A stretch of DNA of 8,164 nucleotides from Bryobacterales bacterium (lineage in GTDB: Bacteria; Cyanobacteriota; Vampirovibrionia; Obscuribacterales; Obscuribacteraceae): the NCBI GenBank assembly GCA_903970295.1, contig CAJCHQ010000440.1, positions 1 to 8,164 of the forward strand. Reading direction: 5' to 3'. A program made the translations under genes and the position numbers. Below are positions 4,067 to 8,164 of this stretch, one piece after another. The notes under the pieces were generated by a model. That model was not told where the DNA came from. It did not search any database and worked only from the letters and a program-made list of their open reading frames with translations. The stretch's first letter is position 1; each line of letters starts with the position of its first letter.

Positions 4067-5452
4067 CTAAGCGGACGTTGGGTTCGAGTCTTTTACCCAC
4101 AACGTCTTATCGTATTCGGTGACGCCTGTAGTGGTGCCATTAGCGACGCCTTTAAGCATGTCTAATTGGGTTTGAATGTAGTCACCGGCACCCCAACCGA
4201 GAGGGATATCTTTAAACACCAGCGGGGCTTTGAGCAGATTCTTGCCATCAATATCGTAAGAGTCAACTGTGGCAGTGTGAGTTGCCTGGTCCGTAGTTAT
4301 GCCGATCTCTAATTGGTATTCCTTCCCAGCCACGATCGGACCACCTAGCGAGCCGGCATTTTTATCTTCCCATCCTCCCTGCGGACCATCAATGTCGAGT
4401 TGTCCGGTATGCACATTGAGCTGGGTGGCGAGCATTTCTGACGCTTGTGGGGAGCCCTTTGGTGCTCCGGTTGGTAAGTCGTTTTCGAACTCGTGAAGCG
4501 AATTCAATTCGGACTGTGTAAAACTAAACCCTTCGGTCATAGTCACTTGCTGAATCGTCCCGGGATTTTGTGTAATCGGTGTTTTGACGCTTTTTGTCAG
4601 TAGCCCATCACCGCCGGAGCCACCAACCATCGTAACCTGATCTGCCGTTTGACCGTTGATTTCACCTAATTGAGTCGATGTCATCGATTGAACGTTGCCT
4701 GAACCACCAATTTGCTTCGGATTCAAATTCGCCGTTTCACCACTGCCCATGCCGGTATACTCTGTTGAACCCGCTGGAGGAGGTGGGTTTTTTCCACCGC
4801 CAGGAGGAGGTGGTGGCGGTGGTGGTGGCGGCGGCGGTGGTGTAGTCTTGAATTCTTTCTCGTATTGATCCACGGGGAAGTAAGCCGTCGTGTTTCCGGC
4901 AAGCGTTTTAAAATTCAGACTGTAGAGTTTATTAGCAATGTCTTTGATCTCACTGTGGTCGGCTTGCAGGGGTTCGCTGAATTGACTAAAGGTGCTTGAG
5001 GAATCCTTCAAGCCGGTTAAGACATCATTATGTAATGTTTGTTCGTCTGCCTTTACCGTAGCTAGATCAGTTGCACTGCCTGGATCATGCGCCAGTGCAT
5101 TTACATCAGTATGTAATTTGGCTACGGTTTTGTTCAGATTACTGACGGTTGTATCGTAGGATTCAGTACTTTTAGCCGTGGTGGGTTGTGAATCTGCCGA
5201 TGTCTTTGCGGCTGTGGTTGGCGTTGTTGGCTGGGCATCTGGGGATGATTGTTCGTTGACGGTACCGACAATGCTCATCGTTGGAAGTTCACCTTTTTGC
5301 GTCAATGCAACGGTATCTGATGCATTGCTTATTTTTGAGGCGCCCGCTTTGATTTCTCCTTGATTAGTGGCAGACAGGTTCTCTCCCGGCTGCACGTTTT
5401 TAGCGGGTTGCAGATGGTCCGATGGTTTGACTTGTAGTGTTTCAACTTGCAT
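4067..5452 (-). CDS. Proline-tract protein with helical stalk and beta-rich C-terminal domain
   Basis: A 461-residue protein from the ATG at 5452. GGTGAT, part of the extended anti-16S match, lies four bases before that ATG; a GTG three codons upstream (5461) is a weaker choice. No signal peptide is visible. Residues 1-100 are Ser/Thr/Gln-rich and probably unstructured. About 100-175 looks like a helical or coiled-coil stalk (Leu/Val spaced in heptads, e.g. VSNLNKTVAKLHTDVNAL). Residues 205-217 are 13 consecutive prolines, followed by GGG and a second run of four prolines. About 235-455 is a Gly-rich, beta-rich region; its last 130 residues (GQLDIDG, then GKEYQLEIGITTD, then YDIDG, then LGWGAGD) look like a jelly-roll domain such as a ConA/LamG-type lectin, but this is only a fold-level impression. 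The proline run would be expected to need elongation factor P for smooth translation. Function unknown. Confidence 0.75.
   Translation of the reverse strand: MQVETLQVKPSDHLQPAKNVQPGENLSATNQGEIKAGASKISNASDTVALTQKGELPTMSIVGTVNEQSSPDAQPTTPTTAAKTSADSQPTTAKSTESYDTTVSNLNKTVAKLHTDVNALAHDPGSATDLATVKADEQTLHNDVLTGLKDSSSTFSQFSEPLQADHSEIKDIANKLYSLNFKTLAGNTTAYFPVDQYEKEFKTTPPPPPPPPPPPPPGGGKNPPPPAGSTEYTGMGSGETANLNPKQIGGSGNVQSMTSTQLGEINGQTADQVTMVGGSGGDGLLTKSVKTPITQNPGTIQQVTMTEGFSFTQSELNSLHEFENDLPTGAPKGSPQASEMLATQLNVHTGQLDIDGPQGGWEDKNAGSLGGPIVAGKEYQLEIGITTDQATHTATVDSYDIDGKNLLKAPLVFKDIPLGWGAGDYIQTQLDMLKGVANGTTTGVTEYDKTLWVKDSNPTSA
4802..4840 (-). repeat. GGN trinucleotide tract encoding 13 prolines
   Basis: Read on the plus strand, this is thirteen triplets AGG, TGG or CGG in a row, i.e. 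CCN proline codons on the minus strand. The third bases vary (T, A and G), so it is not a pure slippage repeat, but copy number could still differ between strains. Confidence 0.85.
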
Positions 5453-5461
5453 ATAAATCAC

Positions 5462-5837: not shown

Positions 5838-5854
5838 TTAAACTGCGACCTTAA
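5588..5854 (+). CDS. Doubtful small membrane-anchored protein
   Basis: An 88-residue frame from a TTG at 5588; a stop lies five codons upstream, so the start cannot be much earlier. Residues 3-22 (QVGYVLLAISISTVITRSVM) look like a signal anchor, followed by a basic tail rich in Arg and Lys. This layout is what makes it worth listing. Against it: no proper ribosome binding site, a TTG start, and a 17-base overlap with the 3' end of the converging transporter gene. No family recognised. It may simply be an open frame by chance. Confidence 0.3.
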   Translation: MKQVGYVLLAISISTVITRSVMQYHSRQLDLTTRKHLQEIRVRTPGTMPTTQSFSHSRIGQHASKAVPKFTVKSELPVVALRSLKLRP

Positions 5855-7100
5855 CTTCTTCCGGCTCACTCGACACGACCTTTTCAATTTTAGGCAAATT
5901 CAAACTCAGTACGCAAGCTAACAGAGTGAAGCTCGCACCCAGATAATAGGGACTAGCTGCGCCTGCAGCATCAAACAAATAGCCGCCCACCACCGGTCCC
6001 AGAATGCGGCCAAGCGTAGACATAGATTGACCAATGCCCATGACGCCACCGGTTTCATCTTTAAGCGAAAGTTTCGAGAGCAAGCTGCTGTTGGACGGAT
6101 TGTTGATACCAGAGCCGGTCGCCATGATCAGCAAAGCAACGCAGAGCACCGGCAAACTGTGAGTGATCGGAGTCAAGATCAAACCAATAGTAATCAGCGC
6201 GGTGCCAGCAGTTATAAGTTGTGAATCAGGATATTTCGTTCCGATTCGACGAATCAACCCGCCTTGAATTAAGGCCATTACCAGGCCCAGCCCGACGAAG
6301 AGGAAACTATTTTGCTTCATAGAGAAGTTGTAGTATTGATTCGTCAATAGCACGAGCGTTGTCTCCATATTTGCAAAAGCGAACGTCGAGATGAACATAA
6401 TCAATAAACAGAGCGCAAACTTTTGGTCGGAAAGTGTGCGCACATAAAAATCCAAACCGAGAGAAAAGCGGTCGGGACCTTTGGCCTTGTGCTGCGCTGG
6501 CTCTGGCAAGGCAACAGCTGTGAAGATCAAATCGACAACGCTAAAAGCAGCTGCAATAAATCCCAACACATTCGGCTGGACGCCAAACAAACAAGCAATG
6601 CCGGCGATGGCCGGTCCCAAAACAAAACCTAGTCCGAATGCTGCGCCGATCATGCCCATGCCTTGAGAACGATTCTCTTCCGGTGTGACATCTGCGATAT
6701 AAGCCTGAGCCACAGCCAAATTGGCATTGCCAAAACCAGCAACAACTCGCGATAAAAATAGCATCGCCAGCGAATTTGAAAATCCCCAAATTATGTAACC
6801 GATCGCGGAAGCGGCCAAACTGATCATTAAAACTGGGCGACGACCGATTCGATCTGACAAACGTCCCCACATTGGTGCAAAGAAAAACTGCATTAGCGAA
6901 TAGGACATGAGCAGCAGTCCCACTGTCAGCCCACTTGCACCAAATTGTTTTGCATAAAGAGGCAACAGCGGCATAATGATGCCAAAACCGATCAGGTCGA
7001 TGAATACAGTGAGAAACATCAGGCCCAGAGCCATGTTCATCTTGTATTTGTCACTATTTTTATCCTTAGCGACCCCAGTCTGGCCAGATTTATGCTTCAT
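5838..7100 (-). CDS. MFS efflux transporter, TetA-like DHA1 group
   Basis: A 420-residue integral membrane protein with about 12 hydrophobic segments, the standard size for the 12-helix drug/proton antiporter group. Helix 1 holds FIDLIGFGIIMPLLP, typical of TetA-like members. The loop after helix 2 holds motif A, GRLSDRIGRRPVL (about 79-91), nearly identical to the family consensus. Helix 5 holds LGFVLGPAIAG, the antiporter motif C, with an echo (GRILGPVVGG) in the second half. A central basic loop (near 195-215, PEPAQHKAKGPDRFS) divides the halves, and the tail is acidic (SSEPEEVKV). It probably exports a small molecule in exchange for protons; the substrate cannot be read from sequence. I chose the ATG at 7100, with GGTGG just upstream; the GTGs at 7109 and 7106 are alternatives. 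No regulator gene adjoins it. Confidence 0.9.
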   Translation of the reverse strand: MKHKSGQTGVAKDKNSDKYKMNMALGLMFLTVFIDLIGFGIIMPLLPLYAKQFGASGLTVGLLLMSYSLMQFFFAPMWGRLSDRIGRRPVLMISLAASAIGYIIWGFSNSLAMLFLSRVVAGFGNANLAVAQAYIADVTPEENRSQGMGMIGAAFGLGFVLGPAIAGIACLFGVQPNVLGFIAAAFSVVDLIFTAVALPEPAQHKAKGPDRFSLGLDFYVRTLSDQKFALCLLIMFISTFAFANMETTLVLLTNQYYNFSMKQNSFLFVGLGLVMALIQGGLIRRIGTKYPDSQLITAGTALITIGLILTPITHSLPVLCVALLIMATGSGINNPSNSSLLSKLSLKDETGGVMGIGQSMSTLGRILGPVVGGYLFDAAGAASPYYLGASFTLLACVLSLNLPKIEKVVSSEPEEVKVAV

Positions 7101-7342
7101 GTCCACCACCGATAGACAGTTTCCTAACGTGCATCATTCACTGTCATTAATAGAGTAACGCAGGCCGCAGGCGGTGTTGGCTATTAATTTGTAGATTTTC
7201 CTCACGCCTGAGGGTGACTGGGCTAGCATCAGGTCAGAAAGCCCGGTATCGGCATGCGCTGCACGCTTTTCTCGCTTGAAATCTTTGCGACATGGTCTAT
7301 AACGAAAGTTCATCTCCATGATTGCATCCCGCGACACGAAAG

Positions 7343-7359
7343 ATGATTTAGGAAATCAT
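7343..7359. promoter_or_regulatory. Perfect 7-bp dyad, possible operator
   Basis: ATGATTT (7343-7349) and AAATCAT (7353-7359) are exact inverted repeats around AGG. The 17-bp size and AT-rich arms suit a dimeric regulator. It lies between the leftward transporter gene and the rightward tuf leader, so it could serve either. No known operator consensus matched by eye. Confidence 0.35.
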
Positions 7360-7390
7360 GTTCACAGCATCCACTTCACAGTGATAGAAA

Positions 7391-7427
7391 CGCCGCTTCG
7401 TCTCGGACCTTGTCGAGATGAGCGGCG
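7391..7427. ncRNA. Strong stem-loop in the tuf-remnant leader
   Basis: CGCCGCTT (7391-7398) pairs with GAGCGGCG-side bases 7420-7427 and, after one bulged C, GTCTCG (7400-7405) pairs with CGAGAT (7414-7419). That is 14 pairs including two G-T wobbles, with an eight-base loop. On the minus strand it is followed by TTTCTATC, a poor terminator tail. It is the most stable local fold in this region. It may be part of a long leader RNA or a small RNA; I match it to no known RNA family. Confidence 0.4.
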
Positions 7428-7440
7428 CGCTGAAATCTGC

Positions 7441-7501
7441 CGCGGTGCTGTGGCCTAACGAAGAGTAATACCGGTTGGTGTTCAGCAAACAAGACACCGC
7501 G
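7441..7501 (+). repeat. Exact 7-bp inverted repeat closing a 47-base segment
   Basis: CGCGGTG (7441-7447) and CACCGCG (7495-7501) are exact complements. If transcribed, they would close a domain of about 61 bases directly after the strong stem-loop at 7391-7427. I checked the enclosed bases for signal-recognition, RNase P and tRNA hallmarks and found none. Confidence 0.35.
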
Positions 7502-7618
7502 CACAGCTTTGTGCAGCGAGGTTTGGTTGATATGTCAAACCGCAGGCCATCCGCTTGCCATCGGCACCGTGGCATCACATACATCTATAACCCAAACACA
7601 TAAAGAGCGTTTGGTTAG

Positions 7619-7645
7619 TTTCGCGCGCGCATTTTGTTCGCGAAA
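7619..7645 (+). promoter_or_regulatory. Stem-loop just upstream of the tuf-like ribosome binding site
   Basis: TTTCGCG (7619-7625) pairs exactly with CGCGAAA (7639-7645) around a 13-base loop. It ends 12 bases before the GAGGAG ribosome binding site, so it leaves that site free and could set the 5' border of a translation-ready leader. Confidence 0.35.
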
Positions 7646-7779
7646 ACGTAGGCGCTCGAGGAGAAATATCATGGTTCGCAAAAAGTTCGAAAGAACAAAA
7701 CCTAATTTGAACATCGGCACGAAGGCGGGCATACCGTCGGCGCCGGCGTCGTATCCAGCGTCATCGAATAAGAGCGAAA

Positions 7780-7810
7780 CTGCGTCGACCACCGGCGCAG
7801 CTTTTGCTTT
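7780..7810. terminator. Bidirectional intrinsic terminator
   Basis: CTGCGTCG (7780-7787) pairs with CGGCGCAG (7793-7800), eight pairs with one wobble and a five-base loop. On the plus strand CTTTTGCTTT follows; on the minus strand TTTCGCTCTT follows. It lies 15 bases after the stop of the leftward Gly/Ser-rich gene and about 60 bases after the tuf-like part ends, so it can end both converging transcripts. Confidence 0.6.
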
Positions 7811-7815
7811 GCAGG

Positions 7816-8163
7816 TCACTGAATCAAATGATGCTTTCTTTTATAAGCGAGGCTATTTGGATTATTCGGGTTATTGGGATCGTTCGGATCGTTGGGATCG
7901 TAATTATTCGGATTGTAGTAACCACGTCCACCGCCACCCCGCAATCCGCCGTATGATCTAAATACATGTTTGGCGCTACTGCTTCCGCCGCCAGTGCTGC
8001 TTTCACTTTGACTACTATTGCTGACACCGTTTGAGCTAGTACTTTGAGCAGTGTTGCTTGCAGCGCTTTTGGGCCAGCTAAAATTTTGCACTTGACCCTC
8101 ATGGCTCGCTGCCTCTGCAGCCTGCGCCTGGCGGCTTAGTGACCCGGAACCACCACCAGCGCG
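7816..8163 (-). CDS. C-terminus of a Gly/Ser/Asn-rich protein, 5'-truncated by window edge
   Basis: The minus-strand frame is open from the window edge to a TGA at 7816-7818, giving 116 visible residues; the start lies beyond the window. The GTG at 8091 is in frame but needs no role, because coding continues upstream (AGGGSGSLSRQAQAAEAASHEG). The sequence is low in complexity: a Ala/Gln-rich helix-like stretch, a Ser/Asn-rich stretch, a Gly run (SYGGLRGGGGRGYY), then tandem NPN/DPN triplets, and a basic end (YKRKHHLIQ). Such tails are common in surface, secreted or nucleic-acid-binding proteins; the GGxxGGGGRG part resembles RGG-type RNA-binding tails, but this is weak. No family recognised. 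The bidirectional terminator follows 15 bases after the stop. Confidence 0.7.
   Translation of the reverse strand, partial: RAGGGSGSLSRQAQAAEAASHEGQVQNFSWPKSAASNTAQSTSSNGVSNSSQSESSTGGGSSSAKHVFRSYGGLRGGGGRGYYNPNNYDPNDPNDPNNPNNPNSLAYKRKHHLIQ
7855..7917 (-). repeat. 9-bp repeat tract encoding NPN/DPN triplets
   Basis: On the plus strand, close variants of the 9-mer GTTGGGATC / GTTCGGATC recur in phase with the codons, giving about six Asn-Pro-Asn or Asp-Pro-Asn triplets in the minus-strand protein. The near-identity of the middle copies suggests recent expansion by slippage or unequal recombination. Confidence 0.7.
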
Positions 8164-8164
8164 A

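Follow-up and report, generated by a model that had tools for sequence, protein, structure and literature searches.

Both ends of a gene for EF-Tu (tuf) lie side by side in the window, as the whole stretch of 8,164 nt of DNA analysed here is called. They stand in the right order and orientation, about 52 nt of each being left, and are joined out of frame. With a probability of roughly 0.6, what is left here derives from an additional, ectopic and rather divergent tuf gene that was killed by an internal deletion. Most likely, this makes it a broken gene of an ordinary sort, provided that the contig has not been misassembled.

Both ends of a tuf gene and their junction

The 5' end of the gene occupies 7671-7722 of the plus strand, where direct reading gives 17 EF-Tu codons (MVRKKFERTKPNLNIGT) from the start codon ATG at 7671 through 7721, plus 1 nt. 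It is preceded by a Shine-Dalgarno-like GAGGAG (7658-7663, plus strand) with a spacer of 7 nt to the ATG. Of 20 intact tuf genes from the order, 19 carry AAGGAG ahead of the start codon and one (L109) carries TAGGAG; GAGGAG, as in the window, is found at L146. In blastn runs against four intact tuf loci, one locus per run (L019, L020, L021 and L022), 7671-7722 matches the tuf start with 81% identity in L021 (E 3e-8) and 83% in L022 (E 3e-9), both over 52 nt. The match is weak in L020 (74% over 42 nt, E 0.35), and no match of this segment to the tuf start was found in L019. These E-values indicate that the likeness to a tuf start is not due to chance. The original prediction of GAGGAG, seven bases, ATG and an EF-Tu N-terminus is thereby borne out in its coordinates by both direct reading and blastn. 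The likeness to the elf18 peptide is one that every EF-Tu start would show.

What follows the N-terminus had been described as sequence unlike EF-Tu, which is wrong: it is the other end of the same gene. At 7720-7771 of the plus strand, EGGHTVGAGVVSSVIE followed by the stop codon TAA (7769-7771) is read directly as the C-terminus of EF-Tu, in the frame next to that of the start. By blastn, this segment matches the 3' end of intact tuf in L019 (E 2e-5), L021 (E 3e-8) and L020 (E 5e-12), with 77-89% identity and a match length of 47-52 nt. In L022, the fourth locus, which gave no blastn match to it, it is matched by tblastx only. Judged as a member of the EF-Tu family (TIGR00485), the feature has the N-terminal segment with ribosome site and start, and it has the C-terminal segment and stop in a frame other than that of the start; no single open frame holds a GTP-binding core together with domains 2-3. 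ATG to TAA measures 101 nt, which is no multiple of three, and the frame is broken. Since tuf is 1,185 nt long in all 20 intact relatives measured, the missing core would amount to about 1,084 nt if the parent gene had that length. Recognisable remnants in gene order are thus combined with a disabling change, as in a tuf pseudogene. Conceivably, the two ends derive from two separate tuf genes; with about 52 nt apiece they are too short to tell.

The blastn matches from both sides overlap at 7720-7722 (plus strand), which marks the deletion junction with the microhomology CGA. Its length is 1-3 nt, depending on the Thr17 codon of the lost parent; among 20 intact tuf genes, codons 17-18 read ACGAT(C/T) in 12, and 19 have CGC immediately ahead of the codons for EGG. 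A search of viral contigs for the exact 26 nt across the joint gave 0 matches, which says little on a bacterial locus.

Directly 3' of the stop codon lies a strong hairpin with a U-rich 3' arm (7772-7809, plus strand; fold -21.5 kcal/mol, z -4.33), and none of 200 shuffles folds as well. It is probably the transcription terminator of tuf. A terminator scan of 7100-8164 gave one site (7780-7800), which is no excess over the average of 1.3 in shuffles. In intact relatives, GC-rich hairpins and T-runs are seen by eye, uncounted, some tens of nucleotides after tuf. The position of the hairpin after the stop suggests that the remnant may still be a transcription unit. By its AAA/UUUU arms, the same hairpin could cause termination both ways between convergent units. 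The fusion has created an open frame of 96 codons (7671-7961, plus strand), which crosses the tuf 3' end in the wrong frame and further on overlaps, on the opposite strand, a convergent open frame (7816-8163, minus strand). The latter is rich in Asn/Pro/Asp, Ser and Gly, is cut by the contig end and belongs to no family found; no homologue of it was found in 53 genomes, a result that shows little given its simple composition and a silent positive control.

Divergence of the copy and its genomic setting

The comparison of the window copy with intact tuf genes of the class, 45 distinct ones in all, covers 33 codons. The copy differs from each of the 45 by amino-acid-changing differences in at least 8 of the 33 codons (mean 9.3). 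The intact genes differ among themselves by 3.9 changed codons on average; each of them has a neighbour within 4 changed codons, and 44 of the 45 have one within 2. Synonymous differences of the copy are not raised (11.0 against 14.0). As pairs among the intact genes differ by up to 9 codons, the divergence alone is no proof of a second gene.

Had the copy decayed after its loss, conserved positions would have been hit. All 11 invariant EF-Tu columns are instead unaltered in the window, and of the 33 residues compared, 32 have a precedent at the corresponding position among 116 intact EF-Tu proteins, Val2 being the exception. When neutral mutation was simulated from 41 starting sequences with 4000 runs per number of changes, at most one unseen residue resulted in 0/4000 runs with 8 and with 9 changes, in 1/4000 with 7 and in 9/4000 with 6. 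Decay is thereby ruled out as the main source of the amino-acid differences. With 32 of 33 residues in use by intact EF-Tu, the copy probably diverged as a working EF-Tu, and its core was lost later. Asn12 occurs in 42 of the 116 EF-Tu proteins, namely in 42 of the 55 from the same phylum and in 0 of the 61 from other phyla, which marks the window copy as one of its phylum's kind.

A DNA search of 386 genomes of the phylum, with the two best candidates per genome scored, gave matches in 34 genomes and no tuf closer than the best one of the order: the top match reaches 52.7 bits with 82% identity across 51 nt, and that of the order 63.5 bits. Among plasmids, three records show short matches of 7655-7775 at the 3' end (E 9e-8 to 7e-3), two of them annotated as tuf and one unannotated; the same segment has no match among phages.

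The next recognisable gene upstream encodes a major facilitator superfamily transporter (5838-7109, minus strand; Pfam PF07690, E 8e-62). It is 75-78% identical to counterparts in four MAGs, two labelled Candidatus Obscuribacterales and two Cyanobacteria bacterium, all in one order. The transporters of these four are 73-80% identical to one another, and the similarity of the two ranges suggests that the source of the window is a relative of about the same rank. A protein 96% identical to the transporter is found on a contig of 1.5 kb. Judging from the transporter, the contig resembles that order, and its source bacterium would be close to Obscuribacterales.

At E 1e-60 or better, a limit that would miss weaker fragments, the order's 53 genomes yielded exactly one tuf in 43 cases and none in the other 10, and no second tuf was found in any of the 53. 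In the class, 130 of 146 genomes have an EF-Tu match, and three of these (G132, G143 and G161) have two rows, which are partial matches only. A tRNA scan covered 29 of the order's 43 tuf loci with their flanks. In 25 of the 29, tRNA-Thr, tRNA-Tyr and tRNA-Thr precede tuf on its strand, and with L152, where a single tRNA-Thr stands before tuf at a contig edge, the number of tuf loci behind tRNA genes comes to 26 of 29. Two more (L106 and L113) are contig ends that begin merely 212 and 200 nt upstream of tuf. The tuf gene at L145, the sole one found in its genome (G009), is of a divergent type (MADAAVFDRTKPHVNVGT) without tRNA genes in the 2.9 kb upstream, and may be either a contamination or a transferred gene.

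No tRNA gene lies in the window. When eight window proteins were compared by tblastn with 118 loci, including 20 of the 29 flanked tuf loci, matches were obtained for the transporter and one distant neighbour only. The latter is the open frame 875-1411, which has a 49% homologue at 7084-7593 of L101, about 1.9 kb downstream of tuf, probably by coincidence. Without tRNA genes and with other neighbours, the tuf copy of the window appears ectopic, and an in-place deletion of the housekeeping tuf is ruled out by the tRNA context. The 350 nt upstream resemble the upstream regions of 24 intact tuf genes no better than shuffles in 23 cases (30 shuffles each), the exception being L099 by one point (score 23 against a best shuffle of 22). 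Likewise, 7772-8071 stays within 30 shuffles for the 3' flanks of 23 of 25 intact tuf genes; L100 and L115 score 24 against a best shuffle of 21, which is about chance level for 25 tests. Rfam gave nothing at gathering scores in the window. Two other open frames belong to no Pfam family: that at 3-497, which is cut by the contig start, consists of two similar halves (RAQVLGRAYG and related stretches occur in both), and that at 4067-5461 (minus strand) encodes 464 residues with a long proline run.

Deletion and its rivals

The destruction of a tuf copy by deletion, one of the options in the original prediction, fits best, the C-terminus and stop following directly on the N-terminus. An extra tuf copy would have diverged while working as EF-Tu, and a deletion at the microhomology of 1-3 nt would then have taken out the core. 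The cell would live on a normal tuf beside tRNA genes. Transcription of the leftover pseudogene, beginning in its own leader and ending at its own terminator, may persist, and the transcript might give rise to a peptide without meaning, at most 96 residues long.

Random deletions show a microhomology of 1 nt or more in 44% of cases and of 3 nt or more in 5.7% (P 0.057). One to three shared nucleotides are normal for illegitimate deletion, and the joint is without the k identical bases that k-mer assemblers need, which supports a deletion and not a k-mer overlap. On the other side, random deletions that leave 52 nt or less at the 5' end leave 52 nt or less at the 3' end in 4.4% of cases and leave near-equal ends (within 3 nt) in only 0.5%. 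The near-equal ends of about 52 nt each therefore count against a chance deletion, and no tested mechanism explains them well. The lack of a second tuf in the order at E 1e-60 or better and the near-identity of published duplicates count against an extra divergent copy. Such equal ends are what would be expected of unique contigs reaching one k-mer into a shared or collapsed repeat, and they lend some weight to a misassembly or a chimeric library molecule, by which a complete tuf would stand here, or the flanks of two copies would have been joined, with the core skipped by the assembler or by PCR. This is a tentative second choice. The window is a whole contig that ends about 390 nt past the joint, other assemblies do break at tuf, as shown by several genomes with pieces of it on the ends of contigs (G516, G529, G557, G161 and G595 among them), and genomes of the class as a rule carry a single tuf, all in keeping with an artefact. 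However, the joint shares far fewer nucleotides than a k-mer overlap, the ends stand in the correct order and orientation, and the neighbourhood is unlike the usual tuf locus; with at least 8 of 33 codons off all 45 tuf genes of the class, the copy is also unlike a sister species' housekeeping gene.

A functional short gene, which would have preserved its leader and ribosome site, the EF-Tu start, the stop and the terminator for a short transcript or peptide serving as a decoy or target in tuf control, is improbable. The start signals and the stop are retained, the kept ends are symmetric and a hairpin of z -4.33 follows the stop; yet the 96-codon frame has no homologue, the search having returned one candidate, the window itself, and it runs antisense through another open frame and bears no sign of selection. 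Moreover, 7600-7771 folds like shuffles (z -0.09), and the leader is like shuffled sequence in nearly all comparisons with intact tuf leaders. The suggestion of a short tuf-like transcript existing for its own sake is therefore not upheld, and a function of the peptide or RNA has little support beyond the hairpin and the symmetric ends. Slightly less probable again is a course of events in which the core was removed while both gene ends, the start signals and the hairpin terminator were preserved since a short tuf-like transcript had a use of its own, such as that of a decoy for a factor controlling tuf expression. The least credible of these readings is a duplicated tuf leader that came to serve a new gene. 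The ribosome site and start codons are intact as it would have them, but the C-terminus and stop of tuf follow at once in another frame at 7720-7771, which refutes it, and the upstream 350 nt show no likeness beyond shuffles to the leaders of intact tuf genes, apart from the single point at L099.

Known tuf duplicates

Under the preferred reading of an extra tuf gene lost by internal deletion, a second, divergent EF-Tu gene outside the conserved tRNA-tuf locus would have existed, and then been lost, in at least one lineage close to Obscuribacterales. If the joint is an artefact, it is a warning that what looks like a gene stub close to the end of a contig may be a gap in a conserved gene. In both cases, the feature is no new kind of system. 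Among papers on tuf pseudogenes, duplicate loss, misassembly and the EF-Tu of Obscuribacter, titles and the opening lines of abstracts report no such remnant. A second tuf is seen in the genome of Ktedonospora formicarum (L012). The first part of this copy (L198) is frame-shifted, reading CGYHWTHRPWQDDPDRG... against GTIGHIDHGKTTL... in the first copy (L190), and elsewhere it is by eye like the first copy; it may be either a frameshifted duplicate or a sequencing error.

Compared with the housekeeping tuf of the order, the window copy is similar in its N-terminal KPN, which is replaced by KPH in other phyla, and in the frame of its C-terminus. It differs in the absence of upstream tRNA genes, in its leader, in the loss of the core and in a larger number of amino-acid changes. 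For the duplicated tuf genes tufA and tufB, differential loss of one copy was reportedly described by Lathe and Bork in 2001. EF-Tu duplicates are nearly identical, gene conversion being assumed to keep their likeness, and either tuf copy can be deleted in E. coli (PMC1780047). The gene proposed here would be like the tufA/tufB duplicates in being an extra EF-Tu gene that can be lost where another copy serves the cell, and unlike these near-identical duplicates in being divergent and in belonging to a lineage that usually has a single tuf.
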